Below, piece after piece: positions 7,240-23,327 of a stretch of 64,000 bases of DNA (positions within the stretch are counted from its first letter, which is position 1; each line of letters starts with the position of its first letter). The notes beneath the pieces are model-generated. The model did no database searches. It was given only the letters and a program-made list of their open reading frames with translations, and was not told the origin of the DNA. Made by a program: the position numbers and the translations under genes. Source of the DNA: Halosegnis rubeus (lineage in GTDB: Archaea > Halobacteriota > Halobacteria > Halobacteriales > Haloarculaceae); assembly GCF_009184545.1 (NCBI RefSeq), contig NZ_QJOW01000004.1, forward strand, positions 62,001 to 126,000, in the 5' to 3' direction.

Positions 7240-7803
7240 TTACTCGTCCCGAACTGCGGCGACGAACAGTGTCTCCGGCCGGTCTGTGGCCAACTCCATC
7301 TCGAAGCCGGCCCCGGCGAGCGCACGTGTGACGGTATCGAGGTCGTATCGCTCGGTCAGCGGCGGCCCCGCCTCGCCCTCCCCGCCGGCGGACCAGTCGG
7401 CGACAACGAGCCGTCCCCCCGGACGAATCGTCCGCGCGAGTTCGGCGAGCGCGTCGTCACTCGCGAACTCGTGGTAGGTCATCGTCGAGACGGCGGCATC
7501 GAGCGCGTCGTCTGCGAACGGAAGCGTCGCCACGTCCGATTCGACCAGCTCAACGTTGTCGGGCAGCGACTTCTCCCGGTAGTAGTCGTGCATCGCCGGC
7601 TGGATGTCGACCCCGTAGACGTGACCGGCGCGGGCCGCCACGTCGTCGGTGTAGAAGCCGGTGCCGCTGCCGAGGTCGGCGACCGTCTCGGTCCCGTCGA
7701 GCGCGAGCGCCCAGAGCAGCTCTTCGCGGGAGACGTACCGGTAGCGACGGCCGGCGTCTTCGAGGGTGGCGGCTCTTTCGGCGTCGAACGTGTGGTGGCC
7801 CAT
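7240..7803 (-). CDS. Class I SAM-dependent methyltransferase, sulfur module A
   Basis: The 187-aa protein has SAM motif I VADLGSGTGFYTDDVA, the acidic GVDIQ loop and a conserved STMTYHEFAS segment, giving a small UbiE-like fold. A close paralogue sits at 22767-23327 at the far end of module B, so the family is repeatedly linked to sulfane-sulfur genes. The substrate is unknown; a thiol or persulfide is an inference from context only. The ATG (MGHHTFD) matches the paralogue's start. The gene is transcribed away from the metE pair, tail to tail, with a 3-base gap. Confidence 0.8.
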   Translation of the reverse strand: MGHHTFDAERAATLEDAGRRYRYVSREELLWALALDGTETVADLGSGTGFYTDDVAARAGHVYGVDIQPAMHDYYREKSLPDNVELVESDVATLPFADDALDAAVSTMTYHEFASDDALAELARTIRPGGRLVVADWSAGGEGEAGPPLTERYDLDTVTRALAGAGFEMELATDRPETLFVAAVRDE

Positions 7804-7842
7804 ATCACACCCCTCCACTCGCGGACGGAAGTAGCCCGCGGT

Positions 7843-8391
7843 TCATACGAGCAGCTGTACGTCGGCGTCGGCCATGCGTGACAGCGCCGTCGCCGCGCCC
7901 ACGCCCACGGTGACGCCATCGTGGAAGCGCTCCTCGTCGTGGCCCATCAGGTCGATGGTCATCTGACACGCCTGGAGTTCGACGCCCATCTCGAGTGAGG
8001 TGTCGAGCAGCTCCTCGACGGTCGCCACGTCGTTGTCGGCGATCTTCCGCTCCATCATCGCCGTGGCGAGCCGGTCCATCCCGGGGAGGGCGGCGACGGC
8101 GTTCGGCATCGGCATGCTCGGATTGCCCACCGCGCTCAACTGGAGGTCACTGGAGTGGTCCTCGTGGAGGATATCCAATCCCCAGAAGGTGTGGAAGACG
8201 GTCACGTCCCAGTCGAAGGCCGCGGCCGTCGAGGCGAGAATCAGTGGTGGATACGCCATGTCGAGAGTGCCCTGCGTGGCGACGATGACCATCGACCGCT
8301 CGCCTTCGGTCCCCTCGTCGGCTTCCAGTTCCTCGATGCGGGCCTCCAGTTGTGCGATTCGCTCGCTCGCCTCGCTCGACGTGGTGCTCAT
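7843..8391 (-). CDS. DsrE/DrsH-like sulfur relay protein, module A
   Basis: This 182-aa protein has an N-terminal coiled-coil-like stretch (residues 5-28) and then a DsrE-type fold with TQGTLDMAYPPLILASTAAA and FHTFWGLDILHED. The single conserved cysteine of this branch is in ELQACQMT, the expected persulfide carrier. Its ATG overlaps the TusA stop by 4 bases, so the two are cotranslated. It probably accepts sulfane sulfur from TusA or the rhodanese protein. The module B copy (19162) is very similar. Confidence 0.87.
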   Translation of the reverse strand: MSTTSSEASERIAQLEARIEELEADEGTEGERSMVIVATQGTLDMAYPPLILASTAAAFDWDVTVFHTFWGLDILHEDHSSDLQLSAVGNPSMPMPNAVAALPGMDRLATAMMERKIADNDVATVEELLDTSLEMGVELQACQMTIDLMGHDEERFHDGVTVGVGAATALSRMADADVQLLV

Positions 8392-8636
8392 TCGACGCGC
8401 ACCCGGTGGACGTACACCGTCTCGCCGTCGTCTTCGGTCTCTGTCTGGTCGACGAGCGTGACGCCGGGCGTGCCCGCGGCCCAGCCGTCGATGTCGCTCA
8501 CGCTCCCCGAATCGGTCGCGAGTACTTCGAGTACCTCCCCGGCGTCGAGGTCATCGATAGACTGTTTCGTCTTGACGACCGGCATCGGGCAGGCTTCGCC
8601 TTTCACGTCGACTGTCTCCGTCGGAGTGTCCGTCAT
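8388..8636 (-). CDS. tusA: TusA-type sulfur carrier, module A
   Basis: The 82-aa protein carries the TusA signature KGEACPMPVVKTKQ with the reactive Cys at residue 16, which holds sulfur as a persulfide. Start at ATG 8636; an upstream extension to 8753 runs through the promoter and is rejected. It is divergent from the rhodanese-MBL gene at 8869, with a 230-base control region between them. Confidence 0.9.
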   Translation of the reverse strand: MTDTPTETVDVKGEACPMPVVKTKQSIDDLDAGEVLEVLATDSGSVSDIDGWAAGTPGVTLVDQTETEDDGETVYVHRVRVE

Positions 8637-8639
8637 GGT

Positions 8640-8839
8640 TTGCAATCGAACTGCAATCAGGTACGGTGCGACAAGAGCCTTTCGTCCACCGTGCAATCTA
8701 CCTTGCTCGTGAGAGTATTGGTGACTCGATTTGTATCCAGTGTGTGACGGCATTTGCGCCGAAATGTCTTTTTGGCTCCTATATCAGGTACGCGGTGGCC
8801 AACGTTCAGTTGCAAGACGAGTGCAATACTAACGCAATC
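8640..8839. promoter_or_regulatory. Divergent control region with phased GCAAT repeats
   Basis: GCAAT occurs at 8642, 8653, 8693, 8823 and 8834, and GCAAG at 8812. The pairs 8642/8653 and the triplet 8812/8823/8834 are spaced exactly 11 bases, one helical turn. The octamer CAATACTA (8824-8831) also occurs in module B promoters. The 8642/8653 pair lies right against the tusA start and the triplet 30-57 bases before the rhodanese-MBL ATG, so binding would block both promoters. The binding protein is unknown; the linked winged-helix regulator is the natural candidate. Confidence 0.55.
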
Positions 8840-8868
8840 CTTTTGACGGCGAATCCACGAATGGGAGT

Positions 8869-10041
8869 ATGAGCAAACCGATGTTTCCGGAGACGGACGC
8901 GGAAATCGACCCGACGACGCCGGCCGAGTTGAAGACTCGTCTCGACGCCGGTGAGTCCGTGACTCTCCTCGATACGCGGGCGGAATCAGAGTATGAAACG
9001 TGGCACATCGACGGGCCGACCGTGCGGACGGTGAACGTCCCGTACTTCGAGTTCCTCGACGGCTTCGAGGCCGACCTCGTGGCTGACGTGTCGACCGACG
9101 AGCCGGTGGTCGTCGTCTGTGCGAAGGGGAAATCCAGCGAGTTCGTCGCGGAGCTACTCGCCGACGCGGGGTATGACACCTCGCACCTCGAAGACGGGAT
9201 GCGCGGCTGGGCGCGGCTCTACGAGCACACCGACCTCGAACTGCCGTCGGGGTCGCTCGTGCGCCAGTACCGCCGGCCCTCTTCGGGCTGTCTCGCGTAC
9301 ATGGTCGTGAGCGACGGCGAGGCCGCCGTCGTCGACCCGCTGCGCGCGTTCACCGACCGCTACGTCGCGGACGCACGCGACCTCGGCGTGAACATCGAGT
9401 ACGTGCTCGACACGCACATCCACGCCGACCACGTGAGCGGGCTGCGTGACCTCGCCGACGCGACCGGAGCCGAGATGATTCTCCCCGCTGCTGCTGTGGC
9501 CCGTGGCGTCGTTGATGGCGATGAGATGCGTCCAGTCGAGGGTGGCGACTCACTCGCGGTGGGGACGGCGACCATCGCCGTGCGTCCGACGCCGGGCCAC
9601 ACCTCCGGGATGACGACCTACCGCGTCGACGACCACCTCGCGCTCACCGGCGACACCCTGTTTCTCGACAGCGTCGCCCGTCCCGACCTCGAAGACGGCG
9701 ACGACGGTGCCCGAGCCGCGGCCGAGCAGCTGTACGACACCCTCCACGACCGCCTGCTCACGCTTCCCAACGACACGCTGATCGGCCCGGCCCACTTCGG
9801 CGATGCCGAGACCGCCCGCGATGACGGTGCTCACCTCGCCACGCTCGGCAGTGTGGTCGACCGGCTTCCGCTGCTCAGCGTGGATAAAGAGGTCTTCGTC
9901 GACCGCGTGCTCGCGAACATGCCGCCACGCCCCGCGAACTACGAGGAGATCATCGCGGCCAACCTCGGACAGACGACCCCAAGCGCCGCAGACGCGTTCA
10001 CGATGGAACTCGGCCCGAACAACTGCGCGGCGGGTGAGTGA
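8869..10041 (+). CDS. Rhodanese-metallo-beta-lactamase fusion (persulfide dioxygenase-like), module A
   Basis: This 390-aa protein has an N-terminal rhodanese domain (about residues 15-115) with catalytic Cys84 in VVVCAKGKSSE. A metallo-beta-lactamase domain follows, with the H-x-H-x-D-H metal site at residues 183-188 (THIHADHVSG) and later His/Asp ligands in TPGHTSGM and TGDTLF. The tail MPPRPANYEEII is shared with its module B paralogue. ETHE1-type MBL enzymes oxidise glutathione persulfide; haloarchaea use other thiols, so the substrate is uncertain. The domain order is the reverse of the common bacterial PDO-rhodanese fusions. Confidence 0.88.
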   Translation: MSKPMFPETDAEIDPTTPAELKTRLDAGESVTLLDTRAESEYETWHIDGPTVRTVNVPYFEFLDGFEADLVADVSTDEPVVVVCAKGKSSEFVAELLADAGYDTSHLEDGMRGWARLYEHTDLELPSGSLVRQYRRPSSGCLAYMVVSDGEAAVVDPLRAFTDRYVADARDLGVNIEYVLDTHIHADHVSGLRDLADATGAEMILPAAAVARGVVDGDEMRPVEGGDSLAVGTATIAVRPTPGHTSGMTTYRVDDHLALTGDTLFLDSVARPDLEDGDDGARAAAEQLYDTLHDRLLTLPNDTLIGPAHFGDAETARDDGAHLATLGSVVDRLPLLSVDKEVFVDRVLANMPPRPANYEEIIAANLGQTTPSAADAFTMELGPNNCAAGE

Positions 10042-10042
10042 G

Positions 10043-10498
10043 ATGCTGTTTCCGAACGGCTGGCTCCCGTATCTGGTCGGCGGCGTCCTCATCGGTCTCG
10101 GGACGGCGATTATCTACCTGACGACGGCCATCCCAGCCGGCGCGAGCACGTTCCTCGAATCCACGCTCTCGTACGCCTCCGACCGACCGCGATTTCAAAA
10201 GTATCGCGGCTCCCGGGACTGGCGTGTCGTCTTCTCCGTCGCCATCGTGCTCGGCGCGGCCGCCTACGCCTTCACCTTCGGTGACGGGCCGTGGACGACG
10301 GACGTGCAGCCGTGGCGACTCGCCGCTGGTGGGCTTCTCGTCGGCGTCGGCACCCGGCTCGGGAAGGGGTGTACCTCGGGACACGGGGTCTGCGGTATCG
10401 GTTCCGGGTCGCGCACCTCGCTCGTCGGCGTCGCCACGTTCGTCGCCGTCGCAATCGGGACCGCACAACTGGTAGCAGCACTGGGGGTGTCGCCGTGA
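10043..10498 (+). CDS. YeeE/YedE half-transporter A, module A
   Basis: The 151-aa membrane protein has hydrophobic segments at residues 8-28, 60-75, 90-103 and 125-148. It carries the cysteine motif GKGCTSGHGVCG typical of one half of YeeE/YedE (TsuA-like thiosulfate permeases). The ATG is 1 base after the rhodanese-MBL stop, and it overlaps half B by 4 bases. Together the two halves make about 300 aa, close to a single full-length TsuA. Confidence 0.87.
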   Translation: MLFPNGWLPYLVGGVLIGLGTAIIYLTTAIPAGASTFLESTLSYASDRPRFQKYRGSRDWRVVFSVAIVLGAAAYAFTFGDGPWTTDVQPWRLAAGGLLVGVGTRLGKGCTSGHGVCGIGSGSRTSLVGVATFVAVAIGTAQLVAALGVSP

Positions 10499-10956
10499 GC
10501 GACCACGACCAGCACCCGCTGTTTCTGCCGGCGGTGTTCGTCGGCGGGCTCGTTTTCGGTGTCGGGCTTGCCGTCAGCAGGATGGCCCGCCCGGAGGTCG
10601 TGCTCGATTTCCTCCAGTTCGAGGACTTCGGGCTCCTGCTCGTTATGGGCGGTGCGGCGACCGTGACGGCCGCGACCGTGACACTCGCGGTCAAATCCGG
10701 AGGAACGGCCCCGCTCACCGGTCGTCCTTACGGCCGTCGGCTGAAGGAGTTCGATTCGAACGTCCTGCTCGGCGGCGGTGTCTTCGGGATCGGCTGGGGA
10801 CTGTCGGGTATCTGTCCTGGCGCGGCCTACGCGAGCCTCGGCGTCGGCAATCTCCCGATTCTGTGGGCCATCGCCGGGATGTTCGCCGGCGCGTACCTGC
10901 AGGGGTGGCTCCGCGACGCCGTGCGGGCAGCGGACGCGACGGAGGTGGGTGCATGA
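10495..10956 (+). CDS. YeeE/YedE half-transporter B, module A
   Basis: This 153-aa membrane protein supplies the other signature of the family, GWGLSGICPGAAYASLG, with its conserved cysteine. FVGGLVFGVGLAVSRMARPE is the first membrane segment. The GTG start overlaps half A (GTGA), so equal amounts are likely made. It probably forms a heteromeric channel for thiosulfate or a related sulfur compound. Confidence 0.87.
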   Translation: MSDHDQHPLFLPAVFVGGLVFGVGLAVSRMARPEVVLDFLQFEDFGLLLVMGGAATVTAATVTLAVKSGGTAPLTGRPYGRRLKEFDSNVLLGGGVFGIGWGLSGICPGAAYASLGVGNLPILWAIAGMFAGAYLQGWLRDAVRAADATEVGA

Positions 10957-11002: not shown

Positions 11003-11419
11003 ATGCCGGACTCGATGGCCGCGATGCTGGAACAGGACCTAGAGTGTGAGTCGCTGCTCGACTGCTTCCACGGGCTGAACGACTTGGACCGGCGCGTCTT
11101 CCGGCTGCTCGTCGAGTCCGACGACCCGCTCACGGTCGATGAACTCGCGGAAGAGATCGACCGCGAGCGGACGACCGCCTACCGGTCGCTCCAGCGGCTG
11201 CTCGATGCCGGTATCGTCGAGAAGAACCGAGAGAGCTTCGAGTCGGGCAGCTACTACGACGTGTTCTCGCCCGTCGCTCCGGACGAGATTGCAGACGACA
11301 TGCAGCGGCTGCTCAACGACTGGTACGCTACGGTGGGACAGCTCATCGCCGAGTTCCGCGACAAGTACGAGACGCAGGCGACCGAGCCGACGGAGCCGAC
11401 GCCCCCGGATCCAGAATGA
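11003..11419 (+). CDS. Winged-helix regulator with C-x5-C, module A
   Basis: The 138-aa protein has an N-terminal LECESLLDCFHGLNDLD segment (Cys15 and Cys21). A MarR/TrmB-like winged helix follows (VDELAEEIDRERTTAYRSLQRLLDAGIVEK) and a C-terminal helix DDMQRLLNDWYATVGQLI, probably for dimerisation. Two paralogues lie at 12825 and 21754. The Cys pair next to the helix-turn-helix could sense persulfides; this is inference. The gene follows the transporter pair closely and overlaps DUF2270 by 4 bases. Confidence 0.8.
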   Translation: MPDSMAAMLEQDLECESLLDCFHGLNDLDRRVFRLLVESDDPLTVDELAEEIDRERTTAYRSLQRLLDAGIVEKNRESFESGSYYDVFSPVAPDEIADDMQRLLNDWYATVGQLIAEFRDKYETQATEPTEPTPPDPE

Positions 11420-12108
11420 GCGACCCGACCGACCCAACCGACTCACCCGACCCCGGTGTCGGTCGCGGTCTGCTCGAGGAAGAGATGGGTCCCTCGGGCG
11501 CGATGGCCCACCTCTATCGCGGCGAAGTCCACCGCATGAAGCTGTGGCGTGAACGGCTCGACCGAACGACGAACTGGACCGTTCTGCTGTTGGCCGCGAT
11601 TCTGACGTGGGCGTTCACCAACGAGTCGAACCCGCACTACGTGCTGCTCATCGGAAACCTCGCCGTCGGGCTGTTTCTGGTCATCGAGGCCCGCCGGTAC
11701 CGCGCGTACGACATGTGGCGCTCGCGAGTCCGAACGCTCCAGCGAAACGTCTGGGCGCTCGGCTTGGACCCGATGCGGGAGCCGACCGACGGCTGGCGGG
11801 AGCGACTCGCTGAAGACTACCATCAGCCGACGCTGAAGATATCGGCCGAAGAGGCCATCGCTCACCGTCTCCGTCGGGTTTATCTCCCGCTGTTCGCCAT
11901 CCTCAACGGCGCGTGGGTCGTTCGCGTGACCGCATTCAGCTCACTGCCGTGGCCGGAAAGCGCGGCTATCGGTATGGTGTCTGGTGCCGTCGTCACCGTG
12001 GCTGTCGCCGCTGCGTTCGCCTGTGGACTCGCCGTTGCGCTCCGACCGCGGACATGGCGCGCACGCGACGAGCTCCGGCGAGAGAATCTCCGCAGTCCCC
12101 ACGAGTGA
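11416..12108 (+). CDS. DUF2270 family membrane protein
   Basis: The 230-aa protein has four hydrophobic helices in two pairs (about residues 55-70, 76-90, 157-175 and 180-205), separated by a charged middle. This fits the haloarchaeal DUF2270 family of unknown function. The ATG overlaps the regulator stop, but DUF2270 is also found without sulfur genes, so membership in the module is not certain. It is the last clearly core-type gene before the island. Confidence 0.8.
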   Translation: MSDPTDPTDSPDPGVGRGLLEEEMGPSGAMAHLYRGEVHRMKLWRERLDRTTNWTVLLLAAILTWAFTNESNPHYVLLIGNLAVGLFLVIEARRYRAYDMWRSRVRTLQRNVWALGLDPMREPTDGWRERLAEDYHQPTLKISAEEAIAHRLRRVYLPLFAILNGAWVVRVTAFSSLPWPESAAIGMVSGAVVTVAVAAAFACGLAVALRPRTWRARDELRRENLRSPHE

Positions 12109-12679: not shown

Positions 12680-12712
12680 CACTGGTTAGTATGCACTGGT
12701 CTAAATTAAGAC

Positions 12713-12736
12713 TTGTGTGTAGAGTACACAATACTA
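12713..12736. promoter_or_regulatory. Palindromic operator upstream of thioredoxin
   Basis: TTGTGT (12713-12718), a 7-base spacer and ACACAA (12726-12731) form a perfect inverted repeat that overlaps the octamer CAATACTA (12729-12736). It lies 34-52 bases upstream of the thioredoxin start, over the expected promoter. Similar sites precede the regulator at 12825 and the second thioredoxin. Confidence 0.55.
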
Positions 12737-12824: not shown

Positions 12825-13229
12825 TTAGCTCTCGGCGGCAGGGACTGCCGTTTCAGACTGCTCATACTTCGTTTCAAACTCCTGGATAAGCTGTCCCATC
12901 TTCGCGTACCAGTCGTTGAGCAGTCGTTGCATGTCGTCTGCGATCTCTGACGGGTCCGTCGGCGAGTAGACGTGATAGTATCCGCCTTGGTCGTAGTTGA
13001 TCTGGTCCTTCTGAATGAAGCCCGTTTGCAACAGCCGCTGAACTGCGCGATAGGCGGTCGAACGCTCCCGTTCGACAGCGTCTGCGATTTCATCAACGGT
13101 TAGTGCTTCGCCGGATCCGACGAGTGCCCGGAAGCAGTCTTTATCAAGCTCTTTCAGTCCGTGGAAACACTCGAGGAGTCCTTCACACTCCATGTCTCGA
13201 CGGAGTTGTTCAGACATTGAATCTGGCAT
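12825..13229 (-). CDS. Winged-helix regulator with C-x5-C, module B
   Basis: The 134-aa paralogue of the 11003 regulator shares MPDSM, the MECEGLLECFHGL segment with Cys15 and Cys21, and the winged helix VDEIADAVERERSTAYRAVQRLLQTGFI. It also shares the terminal DDMQRLLNDWYAKMGQLI helix. ATG 13229 is chosen because it aligns with the paralogue; the longer frame upstream crosses the operator. An imperfect palindrome 40 bases upstream suggests autoregulation. Confidence 0.82.
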   Translation of the reverse strand: MPDSMSEQLRRDMECEGLLECFHGLKELDKDCFRALVGSGEALTVDEIADAVERERSTAYRAVQRLLQTGFIQKDQINYDQGGYYHVYSPTDPSEIADDMQRLLNDWYAKMGQLIQEFETKYEQSETAVPAAES

Positions 13230-13268
13230 TGGTATCACCGCACAGTACGTCTTACACGAATAAAAGAC

Positions 13269-13335: not shown

Positions 13336-14367
13336 TTAGTCTGCCGCGGTAGGCGTCGGGGCTTCTTCTGAACGAAGCGCCTGAATCGAACTGACAACGA
13401 CGGCTCCGGCGACTAGTGTGGCAGCACCAAGGATCATAACCAGCGAGACGGTCTGCAGGACTGGTATATCCATGACGTTCCCAATCTTTCGGACGGCAAC
13501 GGCGAGTGCTCCCAAGAGCAACATCACTCCAAAGTAAACCTTGATCTCGTCTTCGTTGACAAGGCTCGTTGCTCCTGCACCAAGCCGCGCACCTAGCGCA
13601 CTCCCTGCGAGTAGCGGCACAACAATCGAGAGATTAACTGCTCCGTCCATTGCATAGAGGAAGCTCCCGATACCGCCTGAGAAAACAATCTCGAACAGGT
13701 CTGTACCGACTGCAATTGGGACGGGAACCCCGATGAGGTAAAAGAGGGCTGGCATCCGGATGAAGCCACCTCCGACACCGAGGAATCCGGAAAGGAGTCC
13801 GGTTACGAATGCAACACCGAGAATCATCCATAAAGAAACGGTAATGTCGCCCCGAAGATTCATCATCGGGGGGACTCGATAGGACTGAATTTTCTTTGCG
13901 ATATCTGGAATATCCTCTGCGTCGGCTTCAGCGTCGGCATCGTGACTGATGCCACCACTACCATCCCCCTTGGTCGCCTGATAGGTGATGAAGGCACCAA
14001 TCCCGCCCAATAACCCGACGTAGATGATGCTCACAACAGTATCAGCGAGGCCCATCCCTTGGAGGAAATGGAGACCGATTTTGCCTACTTCAATACCGGC
14101 AGTGGTTCCAGCAATCATGAGCACGCCGAGCTTGTAGTCCACCTGCCCGAGATCTCGGTGTTTGAGTGTTGCAATGACAGACGTTGCAAACACGAATGCA
14201 AGTCCGGATGCAACGGCGACATCGGTCTTATACCCCATCACCATCAGCGCAGGAGTCACTAAGAATGAGCCGCCCATGCCGAAGAAGCCGAATAACAGCC
14301 CAATGAGGACGCCAAAGCCTACAAACAGGCCAAGCAGCCATGCCGGGCTTCCGAGTAATTCAATCAT
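13336..14367 (-). CDS. TauE/SafE-family sulfite/anion exporter
   Basis: The 343-aa membrane protein has about nine hydrophobic segments and two TauE/SafE repeats. The first contains LIGLLFGFFGMGGSFLVTPAL and the second GLLSGFLGVGGGFIRMPALF, each with the Gly-rich signature. A cytoplasmic loop rich in Asp (residues 140-165) separates them. The family exports sulfite, sulfoacetate or similar anions, so here it would remove the sulfite formed by the rhodanese-MBL enzyme. It overlaps the 50-aa DUF7512 gene by 4 bases. Confidence 0.9.
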   Translation of the reverse strand: MIELLGSPAWLLGLFVGFGVLIGLLFGFFGMGGSFLVTPALMVMGYKTDVAVASGLAFVFATSVIATLKHRDLGQVDYKLGVLMIAGTTAGIEVGKIGLHFLQGMGLADTVVSIIYVGLLGGIGAFITYQATKGDGSGGISHDADAEADAEDIPDIAKKIQSYRVPPMMNLRGDITVSLWMILGVAFVTGLLSGFLGVGGGFIRMPALFYLIGVPVPIAVGTDLFEIVFSGGIGSFLYAMDGAVNLSIVVPLLAGSALGARLGAGATSLVNEDEIKVYFGVMLLLGALAVAVRKIGNVMDIPVLQTVSLVMILGAATLVAGAVVVSSIQALRSEEAPTPTAAD

Positions 14368-14516
14368 TCTTGACGACTCACGGCATTGATGATAGCCTTG
14401 CCAAAGACGCGCTCGAGTAGGCCATAGCCCAGATACAGGACGATTGCCTCTATCAATACAGCTCCGACGACGAGCATAGCGCCGTCAATGCCACTGGCAT
14501 TTTCAAGTCCGAACAT
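14364..14516 (-). CDS. Small single-helix membrane protein (DUF7512-like), TauE partner
   Basis: This 50-aa protein (MFGLENASGIDG...) has one hydrophobic helix AMLVVGAVLIEAIVLYLGYG followed by a basic tail. Small proteins of this type commonly precede TauE/SafE genes in haloarchaea. The stop overlaps the exporter start (ATGA), so it is probably a subunit or assembly factor. The family name is from recall; the function is unknown. Confidence 0.7.
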   Translation of the reverse strand: MFGLENASGIDGAMLVVGAVLIEAIVLYLGYGLLERVFGKAIINAVSRQE

Positions 14517-15212: not shown

Positions 15213-15261
15213 ATTGATTCGGGTCGTGAAACACAGGGTTGCGTTTGAGCACGCGATGAGT

Positions 15262-16437
15262 TCACAGCAGGACCATTCCAGCGAGATATGCGAGGGTGAA
15301 TGACAGAGCGAACGACCCTGCCCACGCACCTACTGTCATGAGGATTTTTCGTGCATCTATAGCTGCTCGACCCCCAACCGCTGCGCCACTGCCGATAATG
15401 GCACTGACGACGATCTCGTTGAACGATACCGGGACACCCAACAAGACTGCAAGTTGGGCGATGAGGAACGACGGCACCAGTGCAGATATCGACCGACGGG
15501 GCCCAAGCGACGAGTAATCTTGTGCAAGCGATTTAATCATCCGAGGTGCCCCCGTCCATGAGCCGATAAGCATCCCGAGCCCCCCGCCGACAAGGACGAC
15601 AGACGTCGACACCATTCCAATCTCATCAAGCAACGGTAACAGCGGCCCAACAGCAAGCCCGACCTGACTGCCACCGGCAGAGAATGCGACGAGGGCTCCA
15701 AGACTCAGTAAGACATGTCGCAGGCCACTGGATTTGTCGTGACGGATATCTAACCAGGTAAGACTCGCAATCACGAGTGAGACAATCGCTGTGATTCCAG
15801 CGACTGACCCAAGCCCCTCCATCGCTAATCTCCGCTGTATAACCCCGCTAATCGTCCCCGGTGTAGCTCCGACACCAAGGAAGCTGAACTGAATATTCAC
15901 GAGCACAGCTCCAACGAGAGCGACGAGGATCGGGATGCTATAGCGTTCTGGAACCGTTTCGCGGGGAAGTAAACTTGCAATAACGAATGCGACTCCTCCG
16001 CCGACAAGTGGTGTAAGAGCCCAGACGGCAGCAATTTGTTGATACTTTACCCACACGGGGGTACCCCCAAGGGCTAGTCCGACACCAATCACTGCGCCCG
16101 TCACAGTGAATGCTGTCGCAATCGGGTATCCAGTCAGGATTCCGATAGCCATCAGTCCAGCTCCCAACACCAGTACAAGAATCACACCAGCTATGGGGAG
16201 ACTGACTCCACCGATGAGACCACTGCCAACTGCCTCTGAGATACTCCCCCCTTGAATAACGGCTCCGGCAAAGCCGAAGATTCCAACAAGAAACGCCGCC
16301 CGCATCGTTGAGATTGCATTCGCGCCAACGGCAGGTGCAAACGGGGTTGCACCGCTTGATCCAGCACCGATGACCCAAGCCATGAACAGGCTAGCGAGTG
16401 CTGCAGCAACGAAGAGGGAAATAAGAGCGAAATCCAT
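15262..16437 (-). CDS. PiT-family anion permease, module B
   Basis: The 391-aa membrane protein has about ten hydrophobic helices and PiT-family features: MAWVIGAGSSGATPFAPAVGANAIS near the start (read in parts) and the second repeat VSFNEIVVSAIIGSGAAVGG. PiT members carry phosphate, but the CysP branch carries sulfate or thiosulfate. The setting, 11 bases from a YeeE/YedE gene, makes a sulfur anion the more likely substrate; this is inference. A different PiT gene is at 39017. Confidence 0.8.
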   Translation of the reverse strand: MDFALISLFVAAALASLFMAWVIGAGSSGATPFAPAVGANAISTMRAAFLVGIFGFAGAVIQGGSISEAVGSGLIGGVSLPIAGVILVLVLGAGLMAIGILTGYPIATAFTVTGAVIGVGLALGGTPVWVKYQQIAAVWALTPLVGGGVAFVIASLLPRETVPERYSIPILVALVGAVLVNIQFSFLGVGATPGTISGVIQRRLAMEGLGSVAGITAIVSLVIASLTWLDIRHDKSSGLRHVLLSLGALVAFSAGGSQVGLAVGPLLPLLDEIGMVSTSVVLVGGGLGMLIGSWTGAPRMIKSLAQDYSSLGPRRSISALVPSFLIAQLAVLLGVPVSFNEIVVSAIIGSGAAVGGRAAIDARKILMTVGAWAGSFALSFTLAYLAGMVLL

Positions 16438-16448: not shown

Positions 16449-16907
16449 TTAATCCGCGTTAACTGCGGTGGAGTCCCGTTCTGCACGGCTACTCCGCCAG
16501 TAGCCTTGGGCATACGCGCCGAGGAACATCCCTGCTAGTGCCCAGAGGATGGTGATGTTTCCAACACCGAGACTAGCATAGGCGGCACCGGGACAGATTC
16601 CTGAGAGTCCCCACCCGACGCCGAAGATTGCACCACCAATGAGCACGTTACGGTCAAACGGCTTCAAGCGCCGCTCGTAGCGGTTTCCGGTGAGTGGTGC
16701 GGTTTCTCGGATGCGCGGCAGCAGGGCGAACGCGATGCCGGAGACGATTGCCGCTCCGAACATCACGAATGGGAGTCCCAGGTCCTCGAACAGGAGGAAG
16801 TTCACCACGACCTCTGGTCGTGCCATATGGCTGAACCCGAGTCCGAATCCGAACACTAAGCCGCCAACAAAAATCAGCGGCTTGAACAGCGGATGTCGGT
16901 TACTCAT
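16449..16907 (-). CDS. YeeE/YedE half-transporter B, module B
   Basis: The 152-aa membrane protein matches the module A half B: FVGGLVFGFGLGFSHMARPE in the first helix and GWGLSGICPGAAYASLG as the signature. It overlaps half A by 4 bases, the same arrangement as in module A. The Arg/Ser-rich C-terminus differs, which indicates old divergence rather than a recent duplication. Confidence 0.87.
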   Translation of the reverse strand: MSNRHPLFKPLIFVGGLVFGFGLGFSHMARPEVVVNFLLFEDLGLPFVMFGAAIVSGIAFALLPRIRETAPLTGNRYERRLKPFDRNVLIGGAIFGVGWGLSGICPGAAYASLGVGNITILWALAGMFLGAYAQGYWRSSRAERDSTAVNAD

Positions 16908-17461
16908 GGGCTCACCCCTAGGGCTGCAACGACCTGTGCAGTACCAATAGCTACCGTCAGGAACGTCAATACACCCACTAACGATGTCTTCGATGCCGAT
17001 CCAACCCCGCAGACGCCGTGACCTGACGTACATCCCTTCCCAACGCGGGTACCGATACCCACGAGGATGCCGCCAAGGAAGAGGCGCCACGGCTGGATAT
17101 CAGTCGTCCAGAGTGTGACGCCAGCGACCTCGTACAGCTGGCCGGTCGTTCCGGGTTCATACAGCGGGCTTGTGATGAGACCGGACTGGAACGTCGCGGC
17201 AAACGCGAGCGCTCCAAGGATGATGCCTGCAGTGAAGAGTACTCGCCAGTCTCTTGAGGCGACATACTGTTGGAACCGCGATTGATCGGATACATACGAT
17301 AACGTCGACTCTAAGAATGTACTCGCTCCGGCTGGAATTCCCGTTCCAACATAGATGAGAACGGTCCCAAGTCCAACGAGAAGGCCGCCGACGGCGTAGC
17401 GACTAATCCCATTTGGGAAGAAGTCGGCGGCTGCTTGGAGCAGTACTGGATCAGGGACCAT
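16904..17461 (-). CDS. YeeE/YedE half-transporter A, module B
   Basis: The 185-aa membrane protein carries GKGCTSGHGVCGVGSASKTS and starts with about 10 residues more than its module A counterpart. It also has an inserted loop (SGLITSPLYEPGTTGQLYEV) between helices. It sits 8 bases downstream of the rhodanese-MBL gene, as in module A. It probably works with half B as a thiosulfate-type importer. Confidence 0.87.
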   Translation of the reverse strand: MVPDPVLLQAAADFFPNGISRYAVGGLLVGLGTVLIYVGTGIPAGASTFLESTLSYVSDQSRFQQYVASRDWRVLFTAGIILGALAFAATFQSGLITSPLYEPGTTGQLYEVAGVTLWTTDIQPWRLFLGGILVGIGTRVGKGCTSGHGVCGVGSASKTSLVGVLTFLTVAIGTAQVVAALGVSP

Positions 17462-17469: not shown

Positions 17470-18663
17470 TTAGTCACCCGCGAGGGAGTCCTGGCTGGCT
17501 GCGCAGTTGTTCGGCCCGAGCTCAAGAGTGAATGCCTCCTCGTCGTCGACAGCATTCTGGTCGAGATTTGTCGCGATGATGTCCTCGTAGTTGGCCGGCC
17601 GCGGCGGCATGTCCGAGAGGATGAGGTTGACGAATTCGTCTTCGTCCATCGTGAGCGCATCCATCTCCCCGACGAGTTCGCCGATGGGCGCGGTGTACGT
17701 GCCGTCGTCGGCCGGCTCGGCGGCGTCGCTGAAATGTGCGCCACCGATGAGCGTGTCGTCGGGCAGTGACAGCACGCGCTCCTGCAGCGACTCGTAGAGC
17801 ATTCGTGCGGCGTCAGGCGCCCCGTCGTCACCCTCTTCCAGGTCAGGGCGGGCGACGCTCTCGATGAACAGCCCGTCGCCCGTCGCGAGCAAGCTCTCAT
17901 CTAGGAGGTACGACGTCATCCCAGTCGTGTGGCCAGGTGTGGCGACCGTCTCGATGGCCGCGTCGCCAATCTGGAACGTGTCGCCGTCCACGGCCTGCGT
18001 CAGTTCGTTCGCGTACGTGACGCCGCGGTCGACGGCAGCCTCGGGGATGACGCCCTCGACGCCCTCGTCGTCAATGTCGCGCACACCCGAGATGTGGTCA
18101 GCGTGGACGTGCGTGTCGAACGCATACTTGAGGTCGATATTGAGCTCATCAGCGTCATCAAGGTAGCGATCGGTGAAGGCGCGCAACGGGTCGATGATGG
18201 CAGCTTCATCGTCATCGTATAGGAGATATCCGAGACATCCCGAAGATGGGCGCTGGTACTGGATGAGGGTCCCTTCCCCATCGTATCGTTCGACCTCGAC
18301 GGCCTCGTAGATACTGGCCCAGCCATTCATGCCGTCTTCGAGATGATCGACATCGTATCCGAGTTCTACGAGCGTGCCCGCGACGTATTCGCTGGCACCA
18401 CCCTTGGCACAAAGCACCGTCAGCTCGCGGTCATCCGGTATCTGGTCGAGCACCTCGGTGTCGATGTCGTCCTCGAGGAACTCGAAGTAGGGGATGTTGA
18501 TTGACGTGACGTTGTCGCCGCTAATCCGCCACTCATCGTAATCCGATTGCATACGCGCGTCGAGGAGCGTGATGTCCTCGCCGGCGTCGATGCGGTCTTT
18601 GAGCGATTCTGGGTCGACTGATTCGACCTCGACATCCGGAGTCGGGAAGTCGTCTGCGTTCAT
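17470..18663 (-). CDS. Rhodanese-metallo-beta-lactamase fusion, module B
   Basis: This 397-aa paralogue of the 8869 gene has the rhodanese catalytic Cys85 in LTVLCAKGGASE. The MBL metal site is at residues 185-190 (DTHVHADHISG), and the same MPPRPANYEDII tail and LGPNNCA ending are present. The two proteins are clearly homologous throughout but differ at many positions. It should oxidise or cleave a persulfide in the cytoplasm. CAATACTA lies 65 bases upstream of its ATG. Confidence 0.88.
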   Translation of the reverse strand: MNADDFPTPDVEVESVDPESLKDRIDAGEDITLLDARMQSDYDEWRISGDNVTSINIPYFEFLEDDIDTEVLDQIPDDRELTVLCAKGGASEYVAGTLVELGYDVDHLEDGMNGWASIYEAVEVERYDGEGTLIQYQRPSSGCLGYLLYDDDEAAIIDPLRAFTDRYLDDADELNIDLKYAFDTHVHADHISGVRDIDDEGVEGVIPEAAVDRGVTYANELTQAVDGDTFQIGDAAIETVATPGHTTGMTSYLLDESLLATGDGLFIESVARPDLEEGDDGAPDAARMLYESLQERVLSLPDDTLIGGAHFSDAAEPADDGTYTAPIGELVGEMDALTMDEDEFVNLILSDMPPRPANYEDIIATNLDQNAVDDEEAFTLELGPNNCAASQDSLAGD

Positions 18664-18727
18664 CTTGTGCGGTCATTTCTATCGGTGGGATACAGAAAAG
18701 CGTTTGCATAGCAATTCAACTATTAAA

Positions 18728-18890
18728 CAATACTACACTTGCTCAACCCACTGCTCAAATTCATAAAGTGGCTTTAGATGGTTGTATGAGGCGTATAGAC
18801 TACTTATTCCGTTAGCACAGAAGTCCATGTAGTGCACAATAATCGATATGCTTTTACTCCCAAAGCCAATATTGTGTGGTAGCTCCAATA
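18728..18890. promoter_or_regulatory. Divergent control region between rhodanese-MBL and TusA
   Basis: CAATACTA (18728-18735) lies near the rhodanese-MBL promoter. TTGTGT-N7-CCAATA (18872-18890) lies 24-42 bases before the tusA ATG. GTGCACAATAAT (18832-18843) recurs at 23328 near the module B methyltransferase start. The divergent layout mirrors module A. Confidence 0.45.
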
Positions 18891-18913
18891 CAGACTAACG
18901 GAGCAGATAACCA

Positions 18914-19159
18914 ATGAGTGTAGAATTCGACATTGCGGAGACGCTTGATGTGAAAGGTGAATCGTGCCCGATGCCAGTAGTGAAGACCAAATCAACGATT
19001 GATGGTCTCACTCAGGGAGAGGTACTTGAGGTCCTGGCGACGGATTCGGGGAGTATGAGCGATATTGACGGCTGGGCGGATGGTACCGATGGCGTCGAGC
19101 TCATCGAACAGCAAGAAGGAGACAGCGTGTACAAACACTACGTGCGCAAGACCGAGTAA
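18914..19159 (+). CDS. tusA: TusA-type sulfur carrier, module B
   Basis: The 81-aa protein has KGESCPMPVVKTKSTIDG with the reactive Cys at residue 18. Its ATG is 2-3 bases upstream spacing from the DsrE-like gene that follows, as in module A, and the operon is divergent from rhodanese-MBL. It would pass sulfur between the rhodanese domain and the DsrE-like partner. Confidence 0.9.
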   Translation: MSVEFDIAETLDVKGESCPMPVVKTKSTIDGLTQGEVLEVLATDSGSMSDIDGWADGTDGVELIEQQEGDSVYKHYVRKTE

Positions 19160-19161: not shown

Positions 19162-19734
19162 ATGAGTACGGACACCCCTGACGCGCCGACTGGCGACGTG
19201 CCATCGCGTGCGGAGCTGGCCGCACGTGTTGACGAACTCGAGACCGCTCTCGCTGACGCTACCGATGAGGAAGGGCAAAAGAAGATGAGCATCATCGCCA
19301 CGAAGGGAACGCTCGATATGGCGTATCCCCCGCTCATTCTCGCCAGCACTGCGGCCGCCTTCGGGTACGAGGTGACGGTTTTCCACACCTTCTGGGGGCT
19401 AGATATCCTCCATGAAGAGCGTTCGAAGAACCTCAAGCTCAGCTCTGTCGGGAATCCCAACATGCCTGTTCCGAACGCGGTTGCCGCGCTGCCGGGGATG
19501 GACCGGGTCACCACCAAAATGATGGAGCGGAAGATCGACGACAATGACACCGCAACCATTGAGGAACTCATCGAGACGAGCCTCGATATGGGTGTGGAGT
19601 TCCAAGCCTGCCAGATGACCATCGACCTCATGGACTACGATGAGGAGAACTTCTATGATGGTGTGACCACCGGAGTTGGTGCAGCAACCGCACTCCAAGA
19701 TATGGCCGATGCAGATATCCAGCTGCTCGTCTAA
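19162..19734 (+). CDS. DsrE/DrsH-like sulfur relay protein, module B
   Basis: The 190-aa protein has an N-terminal helical extension (residues 10-36) and the same core as its module A paralogue: TKGTLDMAYPPLILASTAAA, VFHTFWGLDILHEE and the single Cys in EFQACQMTIDLM. The end ADADIQLLV is also shared. It probably forms a complex with TusA. Confidence 0.87.
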   Translation: MSTDTPDAPTGDVPSRAELAARVDELETALADATDEEGQKKMSIIATKGTLDMAYPPLILASTAAAFGYEVTVFHTFWGLDILHEERSKNLKLSSVGNPNMPVPNAVAALPGMDRVTTKMMERKIDDNDTATIEELIETSLDMGVEFQACQMTIDLMDYDEENFYDGVTTGVGAATALQDMADADIQLLV

Positions 19735-20103: not shown

Positions 20104-21222
20104 TCAGTCCCACTCCGTCTCCAGTTCGTGTATCAAATCCGCAATCTCGGTAGACGTATTCACCGCATGGACTGATGCACGGATTGCGTTCGGTGAGGGT
20201 AACGACCGAACAACAATACCCCTCGAACTGAGCCGATTTACTGTCCGTTCTGGGGCCTCAACTTCGATTGTCACAAGTCCAGACTCTGGGTCGGTCGGGC
20301 TGTGGAGCTGTTCGTCAGGCACTCCATCAACCAACTGCTTGGACAGCAGCTGAATCCGGTCTGCAATGCGGTGGACGCCGACCTCATCAATTACATCAAT
20401 TGCTTCGGCCAGCGCAACATGTGAAGCCGGATTGGCTGACCCGACTTCGAACCGACGAGCGCCCGGAGAGAATTCATACGGGTCTGAACTTGGTGTTTCA
20501 ACGCCCCGGTAACCGATACTTGAGGGTTTCAGTTTTTCTGCAGCTTGGTGGTCGACATACAGTACCCCACCACCCCACAGCCCTAGGAGCCATTTGTGAC
20601 CGGCAGCTGCGACTGCATCAGCCCCCCATTCGTTGACATCCATCGGAAGCTGCCCTGGCACTTGTACAGCATCAACGAGGACGAATGTGCCAGCATCATG
20701 GGCAATCTCGACGAGTTCTGTGACCGGTAATTGAGTCCCATGAGTCCAGGTGACTGCACTAAAACAGACTAACTTTGCATTACTGACTGCATCGGTGAAC
20801 GTATCGGCATCAAGCCGTCCGTGGTCGGTTTCGATTACTTCGACATCGACACCCTGTTGAGCTAACCGCTGCCATGGAAGGGTCACCGCTGGGTGTTCAA
20901 GATCAGTCCGGACGACCGTGTCTCCCGGCTCCCAGTCGATCGCGTTTGCGATTGCGTTGATTCCAGCAGAGGTACTCTCGGTCAGCGCAACCTCACTCTG
21001 TTGGGCACCGATGAACGCGGCAGTTCGCTCGCGCACTTGATCATACGTCTCAAACGCAATCTCGTATGGATCTCTCCGACTGTTCGTGTCGTATTCGTGC
21101 GTTTGTATGAACTCATTGGCTGCATCGACAACATACTGTGGACTCGGCCCATGTGCGCCGAAGTTCAGGTACGTATCTTTCTGCAGCGCAGGAATATCCG
21201 CACGGAGTTCTTCTGGGTCCAT
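20104..21222 (-). CDS. Class V (PLP) aminotransferase, cysteine-desulfurase-like fold
   Basis: The 372-aa enzyme has fold-type I features: TESTSAGINAIANAI, the cofactor-binding VDAVQVPGQLPMDV and the PLP lysine in AAGHKWLLGLWGGGVLY. It looks like the NifS/SufS or isopenicillin-N-epimerase-like branch. I do not see the usual C-terminal active-site Cys loop of desulfurases (the matching region reads RSLPSPNAIRASVHAVNT), and the only Cys is in LVCFSAV. It may be a lyase or epimerase rather than a desulfurase. It lies 14 bases from the second thioredoxin. Confidence 0.82.
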   Translation of the reverse strand: MDPEELRADIPALQKDTYLNFGAHGPSPQYVVDAANEFIQTHEYDTNSRRDPYEIAFETYDQVRERTAAFIGAQQSEVALTESTSAGINAIANAIDWEPGDTVVRTDLEHPAVTLPWQRLAQQGVDVEVIETDHGRLDADTFTDAVSNAKLVCFSAVTWTHGTQLPVTELVEIAHDAGTFVLVDAVQVPGQLPMDVNEWGADAVAAAGHKWLLGLWGGGVLYVDHQAAEKLKPSSIGYRGVETPSSDPYEFSPGARRFEVGSANPASHVALAEAIDVIDEVGVHRIADRIQLLSKQLVDGVPDEQLHSPTDPESGLVTIEVEAPERTVNRLSSRGIVVRSLPSPNAIRASVHAVNTSTEIADLIHELETEWD

Positions 21223-21236: not shown

Positions 21237-21575
21237 TTATGCAGTATACTGTTTAATCAGGTCCGTGAGCGACTCCTTGCGTTGGCTACCACGAAGTCGC
21301 TTCACCGGGTTCCCTGAGACGAACAGGACGAACGTGGGTGTACTTTGGGCACCAAACTCAATCGCGGTCTCGAGATTCGTTTCGATATCCACTTTCACGA
21401 CTGCCGCATCAGTTTCGCGTGATAGGTCCGCAAGGACTGGCTCCATCTGTGTACACGACCCGCACCATTCGGTGTAGAACTCGACGAGGGCGACATCTTC
21501 CTCACCGACAATAGTGGTTAACTCACCGCTTTCAAGTGAGCGAACAGTACTTGCTCCGGTTGACTGTGCTTCCAT
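21237..21575 (-). CDS. Thioredoxin-family protein with WCGSC site, module B
   Basis: The 112-aa protein has the thioredoxin fold with an unusual active site EWCGSCTQ (Cys38, Cys41) in place of WCGPC, and the cis-Pro in GAQSTPTFVLF. The Ser next to the second Cys should change the redox potential. ATG 21575 is used; GTG-type starts upstream enter the operator. It is probably cotranscribed with the aminotransferase. Confidence 0.86.
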   Translation of the reverse strand: MEAQSTGASTVRSLESGELTTIVGEEDVALVEFYTEWCGSCTQMEPVLADLSRETDAAVVKVDIETNLETAIEFGAQSTPTFVLFVSGNPVKRLRGSQRKESLTDLIKQYTA

Positions 21576-21608
21576 CAGTAGCACATACGCACCGCTCAGT
21601 TAATAGTC

Positions 21609-21627
21609 TTGTGTATATTATACAATA
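21609..21627. promoter_or_regulatory. Operator-like repeat upstream of the WCGSC thioredoxin
   Basis: TTGTGT, a 7-base spacer and ACAATA occupy exactly the same distance (34-52 bases) from the start codon as the palindrome of the other thioredoxin gene. The right half is imperfect. Confidence 0.45.
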
Positions 21628-21753
21628 CAGTGAACCATGAAGGAGCTCGCCCGGACAAAGGAGACGTAGAACTGCCACCAGTTTGCCTGGGGCCCCTATC
21701 GTCCCATACCAGTCTGAATAGTCAATTACAGAACAGCGACAAGCGTGAGAAGG

Positions 21754-22146
21754 CTAATCTTGAGGAATCGAATCTTCGTCAGTCGGGTATTCACATCGGT
21801 GAAGTAGTTGTCTTGTGACGGAATACCAGTCGTTCAACAGCGTCTGCATATCCTGTGCAATCTCGGCTGGCTCTCGGAGTTCGTACTCATAATGATAGCC
21901 GTTGTTGTCTTTCACCCTCTGTTGAACCACGATATCTCGCTCTACGAGCCGCGACAGAGATCTGTGTGCCGTTGACCGGTTACATCCAAGTTGGGTCGAT
22001 ATATCCTCGGTGGTGTTCGGTTCTGATGCTTGGTGTATTAATTGAAATACGGCTTTGTCTCGGTCGTTGAGGCCGTAGATACAATCTAGTAACTCGGGAG
22101 TGTGTAATTCGGTGCTTAGTCCTTCACTGACTGATGTGATGGTCAT
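21754..22146 (-). CDS. Winged-helix regulator, third paralogue
   Basis: The 130-aa protein shares the winged helix (TEDISTQLGCNRSTAHRSLSRLVERDIV) and the terminal AQDMQTLLNDWYSVTRQLL helix with the other two regulators. Only the second of the two N-terminal cysteines is kept (ELLDCIYGLNDRDK), and a new Cys lies in the recognition region. Its sensing may therefore differ. ATG 22146 aligns with the paralogues; the upstream 25 residues are hydrophobic and unlikely. Confidence 0.78.
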   Translation of the reverse strand: MTITSVSEGLSTELHTPELLDCIYGLNDRDKAVFQLIHQASEPNTTEDISTQLGCNRSTAHRSLSRLVERDIVVQQRVKDNNGYHYEYELREPAEIAQDMQTLLNDWYSVTRQLLHRCEYPTDEDSIPQD

Positions 22147-22304
22147 TAACGGATATATTGGGCCAACGGCAATGAAGGTTATTCTGTAAAATCGCAATAC
22201 TGTGGCAGTCATGATCTCCAATATATTTTGAAACGGCCGATATACGTCTTAGAGGCGAATTCTCTCGAAAGAGATTTGTATTGTACATCCACTATACTAC
22301 ATAG

Positions 22305-22745
22305 ATGTCAGTTCCGATTAACCCCGAAAACATTGATCCAGAAGATATCGGCGAGGCCCGTGCTACACTCAACATGAGCCATGAAGACGCGATTGAGCAC
22401 GTCCGTCGTGTATTTACAGATACCGGGTTCGGTGTCCCGGTCGAATTTTCACCCTCTGAGATGCTCAACGAGAAGATCGACGCGGGCCGCGATCCGTACT
22501 ACGTACTTGGTGCCTGTAATCCATCAGTTGCCGACCGCGCGCTCGAAGCCACTGATAACAAACTCGGAGCGCTCATGGCTTGTAACGTCGTCATATGGGA
22601 AGAAGACCCGGGTACACAGATCGTATACCACACCTCGATTATGCGTATTGCCCGGCTAATTGGGATGGCGCCGGATAATGAAGAGATGGCAGATATCATC
22701 GCCGACACGGGTGAGCTCGTCGACGAAGCATTCGAAAATCTGTAA
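22305..22745 (+). CDS. DUF302 domain protein
   Basis: The 146-aa protein fits DUF302: a central segment DPYYVLGACNPSVADRALEA, and GALMACNVVIWEED with the family's conserved cysteine region. DUF302 proteins accompany sulfur-oxidation and thioredoxin genes in many prokaryotes, though no activity is established. It is preceded by an AT-rich stretch TTGTATTGTACAT. It is convergent with the methyltransferase. Confidence 0.85.
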   Translation: MSVPINPENIDPEDIGEARATLNMSHEDAIEHVRRVFTDTGFGVPVEFSPSEMLNEKIDAGRDPYYVLGACNPSVADRALEATDNKLGALMACNVVIWEEDPGTQIVYHTSIMRIARLIGMAPDNEEMADIIADTGELVDEAFENL

Positions 22746-22766
22746 CACGGGAGAACCGCTGTCGTC

Positions 22767-23327
22767 TCAGTCTGGTGAGGCTATCACAAGAAATGTATCT
22801 GAACGCATCGCCTGGAAAGAAACGTCGAATCCCGCGGCGTTGAGTTTCGTAGTTGTCTCGTCGATATTATATCGCTCATCAACTGGTGGTCCGGCATTTC
22901 CTGGTCCGTCAGCTGCCCAGTCGAATATAACCAGCTTTCCGTCCAATACGAGCACACGTCTTAGCTCTTCCAGAGCGGCTTCACTCGCAAACTCATGGTA
23001 CGTCATCGTTGACAACGCCGCATTCAGCTCATCAGTCTCGAATGGCAACTCCTCAATCCCAGAGCGGACGAGGTCAACATTCTCGGGGACTCCCTTCTCT
23101 CGATAGAATTCATGCATCTCCTCCTGGATATCGACGGCATAGACATGGCCAGACACTGGCGCAATCACATCGGTGAAGAACCCAGTCCCACTTCCTAGAT
23201 CCGCGACTGTCGTCTCTGATGACGGCTCAAGCGCCCACAACAGTTCCTCTTCTGAAATACGTCGATACCGTTTCGATGCATCCTCAAGCTCCGCTGCTCC
23301 ATCTGCATCAAATGTATGATGTCCCAC
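22767..23327 (-). CDS. Class I SAM-dependent methyltransferase, sulfur module B
   Basis: This 186-aa paralogue of the 7240 gene has the same GHHTFDADGAAELEDAS start, motif I VADLGSGTGFFTDV, the VDIQ loop and STMTYHEFAS. The start is taken as GTG 23327 to match the paralogue (GTG 23333 is also possible). Its recurrence with the sulfur genes in both modules suggests a function in the pathway; the substrate is unknown. Confidence 0.8.
   Translation of the reverse strand: MGHHTFDADGAAELEDASKRYRRISEEELLWALEPSSETTVADLGSGTGFFTDVIAPVSGHVYAVDIQEEMHEFYREKGVPENVDLVRSGIEELPFETDELNAALSTMTYHEFASEAALEELRRVLVLDGKLVIFDWAADGPGNAGPPVDERYNIDETTTKLNAAGFDVSFQAMRSDTFLVIASPD

Follow-up and report, generated by a model that had tools for sequence, protein, structure and literature searches.

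A gene module for probable sulfane-sulfur handling, present in two versions in Halosegnis rubeus, carries a candidate palindromic operator conserved in haloarchaea

Two similar sets of sulfur-related genes lie side by side in the haloarchaeon Halosegnis rubeus, and the question that they raise is whether such a set forms one system and, if so, what that system does. They are found in a 64,000-nucleotide stretch (contig NZ_QJOW01000004.1, positions 62,001 to 126,000), here called the window, and are referred to as module A and module B (Table 1). A reading of this DNA from sequence only had proposed that both are versions of one archaeal sulfane-sulfur system. We find that gene order is conserved across haloarchaea and that the promoters share an operator-like palindrome, and hence we regard the genes as one recurrent functional set, although some of the members originally included are peripheral.

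Genes were called from six-frame open reading frames (ORFs) and Pfam scans of the window proteins, which confirmed every gene that had been named at its position. Both modules encode a class I S-adenosylmethionine (SAM) methyltransferase, a DsrE2 protein (DrsE_2), TusA, a rhodanese–metallo-beta-lactamase (MBL) protein (Rhodanese plus Lactamase_B, hereafter the fusion), a split YeeE pair (Sulf_transp and DUF6691, hereafter YeeA and YeeB) and a TrmB-type winged-helix regulator. In A and B alike tusA-dsrE faces the fusion gene and then the split YeeE pair, and the divergence of tusA from the fusion gene was thus correctly described. Protein identity between the modules is 70% for TusA, 73% for DsrE, 51% for the fusion, 63% for both YeeA and YeeB, 59% for the regulator and 57% for the methyltransferase. 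Module B adds two thioredoxins, TauE, a PHO4/PiT-family transporter, a class V pyridoxal phosphate (PLP) enzyme, DUF302 and a second TrmB-type regulator. A DUF2270 gene (11416-12108) and the conserved operators had been missed.

A scan of 84,980 species genomes gave 170 loci with relatives of the fusion, of which the best 80 were analyzed together with flanks of up to 10 kb; all 80 bear haloarchaeal names. The five-gene core (tusA-dsrE divergent from fusion-yeeA-yeeB) is intact and identically oriented in 78 of these, although the loci are by construction close relatives of module B that share ancestry, and the counts are not of independent events. It is also intact in 17 of 20 further, more divergent loci. 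The fusion occurs in 174 of 195 genomes of Halobacteriales (151 of 157 good genomes), and in a phylum-wide draw of 197 genomes all 33 matches fall within this order (0/164 in the others). Co-occurrence outside this genome, set beforehand as the test on which the idea could fail, is thereby strongly confirmed. The most frequent partners among the 80 loci are PiT (67), TauE (43), thioredoxin (43) and the regulator (42), followed by sulfide:quinone oxidoreductase (SQR, 27), a CoA-disulfide reductase-like protein (23), DUF302 (20), the PLP enzyme (18) and the methyltransferase (14); thioredoxin reductase genes are likewise frequent neighbors. The methyltransferase, DUF302 and the PLP enzyme are therefore minority partners outside the core. 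In other haloarchaea the stretch between PiT and TauE often encodes another protein with a rhodanese domain (about 370 aa), which is related to the fusion (L155 13179-14288; also L007, L008, L015 and L016) and absent here. In one genome of the same genus (G187, 96% complete) the fusion gene and the regulator are both missing, which offers a natural counterpoint for physiological comparison.

Between tusA and the fusion gene of B-type loci (76 non-redundant regions), two conserved blocks flank an unconserved center. Both blocks hold the palindrome GTATTG-N11-CAATAC, which for tusA lies downstream of a TATA-like box and for the fusion gene just upstream of the B recognition element (BRE) and TATA box. 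With a mirror pattern of equal composition as control, sites at ≤2 mismatches number 312 versus 10 in the 80 loci; sites in 59 genomes number 193 versus 33, and plasmid pNRC200 has 4 versus 0.21 expected. Sites precede tusA in 28/28 cases, the fusion gene in 50/83 (76/83 at ≤3 mismatches), thioredoxin 1 in 38/45 (≤2 mismatches) and thioredoxin 2 in 7/8, and none precedes dsrE, yeeA, yeeB or pit, which lie inside operons. Within the window, all the gaps of module B that carry promoters have the palindrome; in the two convergent gaps it is missing, the best match there having 5 mismatches. Chance values of single sites in the window range from <0.002 to ~0.09; because they reach this level, the weaker copies (fusion_A and thioredoxin 1, p ~0.06-0.09 singly) lean on conservation.

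Module A carries a variant of the palindrome, TTGCA-N7-TGCAA, with two exact copies in the whole 2.66-Mb genome, one at each module A promoter, and at least one copy is kept at the same place in each of two sister species. The core common to both forms is TTG-N11-CAA. Candidate regulon members elsewhere in the genome were rejected, given that the remaining sites at ≤1 mismatch (contigs C1 and C10) are inside long ORFs and look like chance.

The proteins of both modules retain the residues on which sulfur handling would depend. TusA has its CPMP motif, DsrE2 QACQMT, YeeA GKGCTSGHGVC, YeeB GICPG and the rhodanese domain CAKGxxS. TusA and DsrE2 thus have the cysteines of sulfur carriers (CPxP and the family cysteine, respectively), although DsrE2 scores below the NCBI equivalog cut-off (163 versus 210), and YeeA and YeeB have the form of a split YeeE, namely two short profile halves with a conserved cysteine in each. 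The fusion joins an N-terminal PF00581 rhodanese to an MBL domain that matches ETHE1-type persulfide dioxygenases in the PDB and keeps the ETHE1-like metal ligand motifs HxHADH, PGHT, TGD and AHF in both copies. A TauE-type exporter, with sulfite transport as a prediction, is present in module B (5.2e-41) and not in module A. The thioredoxins, TauE, PiT and DUF302 had been correctly listed among the additions of module B, but the roles of two members shift. Given that the sole NCBIfam match of the PiT protein is the CysP sulfate permease (70 bits, below the cut-off of 400), it is at least as likely to transport sulfur oxyanions as phosphate. The supposed aminotransferase is C-S lyase-like: it aligns over its entire length with C-DES, a cystine C-S lyase (1elq), and was rejected as a cysteine desulfurase, since Cys153 is its only cysteine and the catalytic cysteine of SufS/IscS in the C-terminal loop is missing. 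It may therefore release cysteine persulfide.

Taken together, we consider it probable that each module serves an aerobic heterotrophic haloarchaeon as a unit for handling and detoxifying sulfane sulfur, including a regulator-operator switch. In the scheme that we infer, which covers enzyme activities, substrates and directions as well as regulator-operator binding, its signal and the sense of regulation, the split YeeE pair would import thiosulfate or zero-valent sulfur, which TusA and DsrE2 would relay as cysteine persulfide. The rhodanese domain would load a small thiol, probably gamma-glutamylcysteine, the usual thiol of haloarchaea, and the fused iron dioxygenase domain would use O2 to convert the persulfide to sulfite. 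Export of sulfite or other sulfur oxyanions would fall to TauE and the CysP-like PiT protein, the thioredoxins would remove persulfides and disulfides, and the PLP enzyme may supply persulfide by cystine cleavage. The Lrs14/OxsR-like regulator would bind the palindromes (the GTATTG form in B and the TTGCA form in A), and sulfane sulfur on its cysteines would alter DNA binding. The complete route claimed at the outset thus has its parts for import, relay, oxidation and export but as a prediction, and this genome lacks the SQR type found beside the module in 27 of the 80 loci.

In the dioxygenase reaction electrons pass straight to O2 and no energy is conserved, which is why we favor detoxification and homeostasis over lithotrophy. 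Lithoheterotrophy, in which thiosulfate or sulfur is oxidized for electrons and detoxification is secondary, could be suggested by the species name Natronorubrum thiooxidans (L056), which has the module, by the SQR genes adjacent in many genomes and by cydAB adjacent in Halobacterium salinarum. However, besides the energetics of the dioxygenase, the module is near-universal in heterotrophic haloarchaea, and no Sox, Hdr-like or sulfite-oxidizing genes were seen among its recurrent neighbors, which leaves this explanation quite improbable. On pNRC200 of H. salinarum (L155 5376-7812) the module B homolog directly adjoins cydAB, whose product belongs to a type of quinol oxidase noted for tolerating sulfide. 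This neighbor, like the SQR, CoA-disulfide reductase-like and thioredoxin reductase genes often found nearby, also speaks for the detoxification unit. The PLP C-S lyase partner, together with a SufBD-core gene that the island carries at a distance of 25 kb, would also fit a supply role, in which imported thiosulfate passes through TusA/DsrE2 to iron-sulfur clusters or tRNA thiolation with the dioxygenase as an overflow valve. SufBD is however not a recurrent neighbor, TauE, PiT and thioredoxin dominate, and the dioxygenase belongs to the invariant core; assimilation or cofactor supply is therefore very unlikely in our judgment.

The candidate for the switch within the proposed detoxification unit is the module regulator, a winged helix of 134-138 aa of the TrmB/Lrs14 kind, with 3r0a (Methanosarcina mazei) and AbfR2 (6cmv) as its best PDB relatives by sequence and fold. 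Of 195 Halobacteriales genomes, 173 encode the module B regulator, and its absence coincides with that of the fusion in 5 of 6 good genomes (Fisher p = 1e-6). Of 64 aligned regulators, 62 have Cys15 and 63 have Cys21, spaced as Cys15-x5-Cys21. Both 3r0a and the second regulator of module B have a cysteine at position 21 but not at 15, hence the second cysteine looks module-specific and the pair is a candidate sulfane-sulfur switch.

The closest described protein in kind is OxsR of Haloferax volcanii, a single-domain TrmB protein in which one N-terminal cysteine (C24) is required for function and which recognizes a CG-rich motif, activating from sites 5' of BRE/TATA and repressing from 3' sites (PMC9426492). 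The single winged helix, the TrmB family and a conserved N-terminal cysteine are shared, a likeness at the level of fold and cysteine, whereas the module regulator has two cysteines and stands beside sulfur genes with an AT-rich palindrome. This raises the possibility of an OxsR-type regulon against thiol-oxidant stress (hypochlorite or disulfide) in which the sulfur carriers are incidental, and the thioredoxins, thioredoxin reductase, CoA-disulfide reductase-like and universal stress protein (Usp) genes among the partners agree with it as well as the OxsR-like regulator does. Yet the core consists of sulfur import, carriers and dioxygenase without oxidant scavengers, and GTATTG-N11-CAATAC, if the regulator binds it, is AT-rich and unlike the CG-rich OxsR motif. 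We therefore regard a pure oxidant-stress regulon as unlikely.

Several observations weigh against the sulfane-sulfur unit and its switch as proposed, in addition to the shared ancestry of the loci. No SQR was found in this genome at 1e-20, although the same query finds matches in 16 of the 29 family genomes; sulfide as such would therefore have to enter in another way. The fusion is far below the cut-off of the NCBI Blh equivalog NF040641 (DUF442-ETHE1; 36 versus 625 bits). Operator placement differs between the two promoters: at tusA the operator covers the start site, and at the fusion gene it lies upstream of BRE/TATA. Such a difference is a poor fit to one simple repressor at both; repression at one of them and activation at the other is possible. 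The regulator gene lies within 10 kb in only 42 of the 80 loci, and another protein could therefore own the operator. Finally, the AlphaFold2 model of the regulator (pLDDT, predicted local distance difference test, 81.7) is low in confidence over residues 1-20, with block means of 54-76 over the cysteine segment.

How does the module relate to known persulfide systems? BigR is an ArsR-type regulator, and the two module regulators, both TrmB-type, lack the features of ArsR-family (Cys42/Cys108) and CsoR-type sensors. The bigR operon of Xylella/Agrobacterium shares with the module a sulfurtransferase-ETHE1 fusion in the same domain order, a TauE-type sulfite transporter and a winged-helix cysteine-switch regulator, but has BigR with Cys42/Cys108 and Blh with DUF442 where the haloarchaeal set has a TrmB/Lrs14 regulator and a PF00581 rhodanese; TusA/DsrE and thioredoxins, both present in the haloarchaeal module, are not listed for it (PMC5823870). 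Clustered DsrE, TusA, rhodanese, persulfide dioxygenase, TauE and thioredoxin also occur in the yrk/sqr-pdo cluster of Bacillus licheniformis and in cst of Staphylococcus aureus, which differ in their CsoR-type repressor (YrkD/CstR), NreBC, SQR and gene layout and for which no split YeeE pair is listed (PMC9918477). The archaeal DsrE/TusA relay has a counterpart in dsrE-tusA of Metallosphaera cuprina, where it is tied to an Hdr-like complex instead of a persulfide dioxygenase (PMC4175335). As in PmpA/PmpB and SoxT/TsuA, the transporter consists of two short halves with functional cysteines, PmpB-like being the N half and PmpA-like the C half (PMC11582611). Because the regulator family differs and the fusion is far below the Blh model, the module resembles the bigR, cst and yrk operons but is not a member, with an archaeal regulator instead.

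No description of the archaeal set or its operator was found in the open-access literature searched, which gave only reductive Psr operons for haloarchaea (subscription journals lay outside the search), and a 2024 survey of YeeE lists Saccharolobus, Sulfolobus and some Thermoplasmatota as archaeal holders without mention of haloarchaea (PMC11582611). The suggestion that the set was undescribed as an archaeal system therefore stands for that literature, tempered by bacterial bigR, cst and yrk, which are close in composition (PMC5823870, PMC9918477). New here are the operator shared by the module B promoters, its A variant and the Cys15-x5-Cys21 regulator as candidate switch. A bolder proposal, which we think slightly less likely than not, is that these define an undescribed haloarchaeal sulfane-sulfur regulon with its own operator (TTG-N11-CAA) and a new class of dithiol persulfide sensor in the Lrs14/OxsR fold, an independent counterpart of BigR/SqrR/CstR in which diverged operator flanks would keep the A and B regulators apart.

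The two modules have separate histories. At about 12.1 kb in the window GC content drops from 65-68% to 49-57% (1-kb bins; one bin 62%), which agrees with the lower GC reported for module B, but the low-GC stretch is not confined to it and extends to ~52 kb. In the sister genome G195 the flanks of window positions 12109 and 52248 are collinear at 89-91% identity with 3.1 kb between them instead of 40 kb, and the missing 40 kb correspond to the low-GC region that contains module B. Module A, including DUF2270, is syntenic in the sister species G195 and G196 (fusion 91% and 76% identical), whereas the B module of G195 is at another location with the same gene set plus a thioredoxin reductase (L123). 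In a quick tree of the fusion the A copies form a genus-only clade on a long branch, and B forms a pair with the B copy of G195, placed among copies from Halorubrum, Halobacterium and Halorussus; relatives of B are plasmid-borne in H. salinarum NRC-1 and R1, Haloarcula and others. In NRC-1 the module spans VNG_RS12065-VNG_RS12120, with VNG_RS12070 as its regulator. Local duplication of A into B was rejected, given 51% identity of the fusions, their deeply separate branches and the grouping of B with the sister-species copy and Halorubrum. Hence module A is native and module B is island-borne, and although two versions do lie side by side, their adjacency reflects an island next to a native copy. 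The island (12109-52248) also holds a second PHO4 transporter, an amino acid permease, a TrkA-type protein, a CNNM protein, a SufBD-core protein, TFB and a possible transposase. The 894-bp gap between tauE and pit (14368-15261) contains an ORF (14832-15212) without Pfam match, a place occupied by a universal stress protein in many relatives, and just past module B (23373-23804) is a 143-aa cytochrome oxidase subunit I fragment (profile 199-324 of 436), apparently a truncated copy.

Table 1 Genes and candidate operators of modules A and B (window coordinates)
Position	Strand	Feature	Basis
7240-7818	-	A: class I SAM methyltransferase, downstream of dsrE_A, peripheral	Methyltransf_11 2.3e-19; kept in G195
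7843-8391	-	A: DsrE2-type sulfur carrier, single Cys142	DrsE_2 3.5e-48
8388-8636	-	A: TusA sulfur carrier, CPMP motif, Cys16	TusA 3.4e-18
8640-8656		A: operator TTGCA-N7-TGCAA at tusA_A start	Conserved in two sister species
8810-8826		A: operator TTGCA-N7-TGCAA upstream of fusion_A TATA-like box	Sequence match
8869-10041	+	A: rhodanese-persulfide dioxygenase-like fusion	Rhodanese 2.7e-13, Lactamase_B 2.7e-15; C84, HIHADH, PGHT, TGD, PAHF
10043-10498	+	A: split YeeE/YedE, C-terminal-half type, PmpA-like (YeeA)	Sulf_transp profile 177-306/310
10495-10956	+	A: split YeeE/YedE, N-terminal-half type, PmpB-like (YeeB)	DUF6691 2e-18
11003-11419	+	A: Lrs14/TrmB-type winged-helix regulator, Cys15 and Cys21	TrmB 1.8e-14
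11416-12108	+	A: DUF2270 membrane protein, 4-nt overlap with regulator	DUF2270 8.2e-66; recurs at L096-L099, L103, L104, L106, L112
12320-12682	-	B: thioredoxin 1 (WCGPC)	4.1e-27
12712-12734		B: operator, 3 mismatches, upstream of thioredoxin 1	Palindrome search, conservation
12825-13229	-	B: Lrs14/TrmB-type regulator, Cys15 and Cys21	TrmB 1.5e-15; Sta1 family 68 bits, cut-off 80
13226-13248		B: operator, 2 mismatches, at regulator start	Palindrome search
13336-14367	-	B: TauE/SafE transporter	TauE 5.2e-41
14594-14616		B: operator, 1 mismatch, upstream of tauE	Palindrome search
15262-16437	-	B: PiT-family transporter, CysP-like	PHO4 1.4e-44; CysP sulfate permease 70 bits, cut-off 400
16449-16913	-	B: split YeeE, PmpB-like	DUF6691 3.6e-19
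16904-17461	-	B: split YeeE, PmpA-like	Sulf_transp 179-308/310
17470-18663	-	B: rhodanese-persulfide dioxygenase-like fusion	Pfam; ETHE1-type PDB matches; motifs
18711-18733		B: operator, 3 mismatches, just upstream of BRE/TATA of fusion_B	Palindrome search, conserved block
18869-18891		B: operator, 1 mismatch in 12, downstream of tusA_B TATA-like box	Palindrome search, conserved block
18914-19159	+	B: TusA, Cys18	3.9e-20
19162-19734	+	B: DsrE2, Cys150	DrsE_2 4.1e-53; SulfCarrDsrE2 163 bits, cut-off 210
20104-21222	-	B: class V PLP enzyme, candidate cystine C-S lyase	Full-length match to 1elq
21237-21584	-	B: thioredoxin 2 (WCGSC)	1.3e-20
21606-21628		B: operator, 1 mismatch, upstream of thioredoxin 2	7/8 homologs
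21754-22221	-	B: second TrmB-type regulator, 35% identical, Cys21 equivalent only	Pfam, alignment
22278-22300		B: operator, 2 mismatches, upstream of DUF302 gene	Palindrome search
22305-22745	+	B: DUF302 protein, peripheral	8.7e-14
22767-23333	-	B: class I methyltransferase, peripheral	3.1e-15

Reactive sulfur handling in haloarchaea is little described in the literature that we searched. With a near-universal module, a sharp operator and a candidate switch, all on plasmids of the model organism H. salinarum NRC-1, archaeal persulfide sensing can be tested by means of the genetics and expression data that already exist. In the A/B pair, one cell further holds two paralogous circuits whose operator variants can be told apart.

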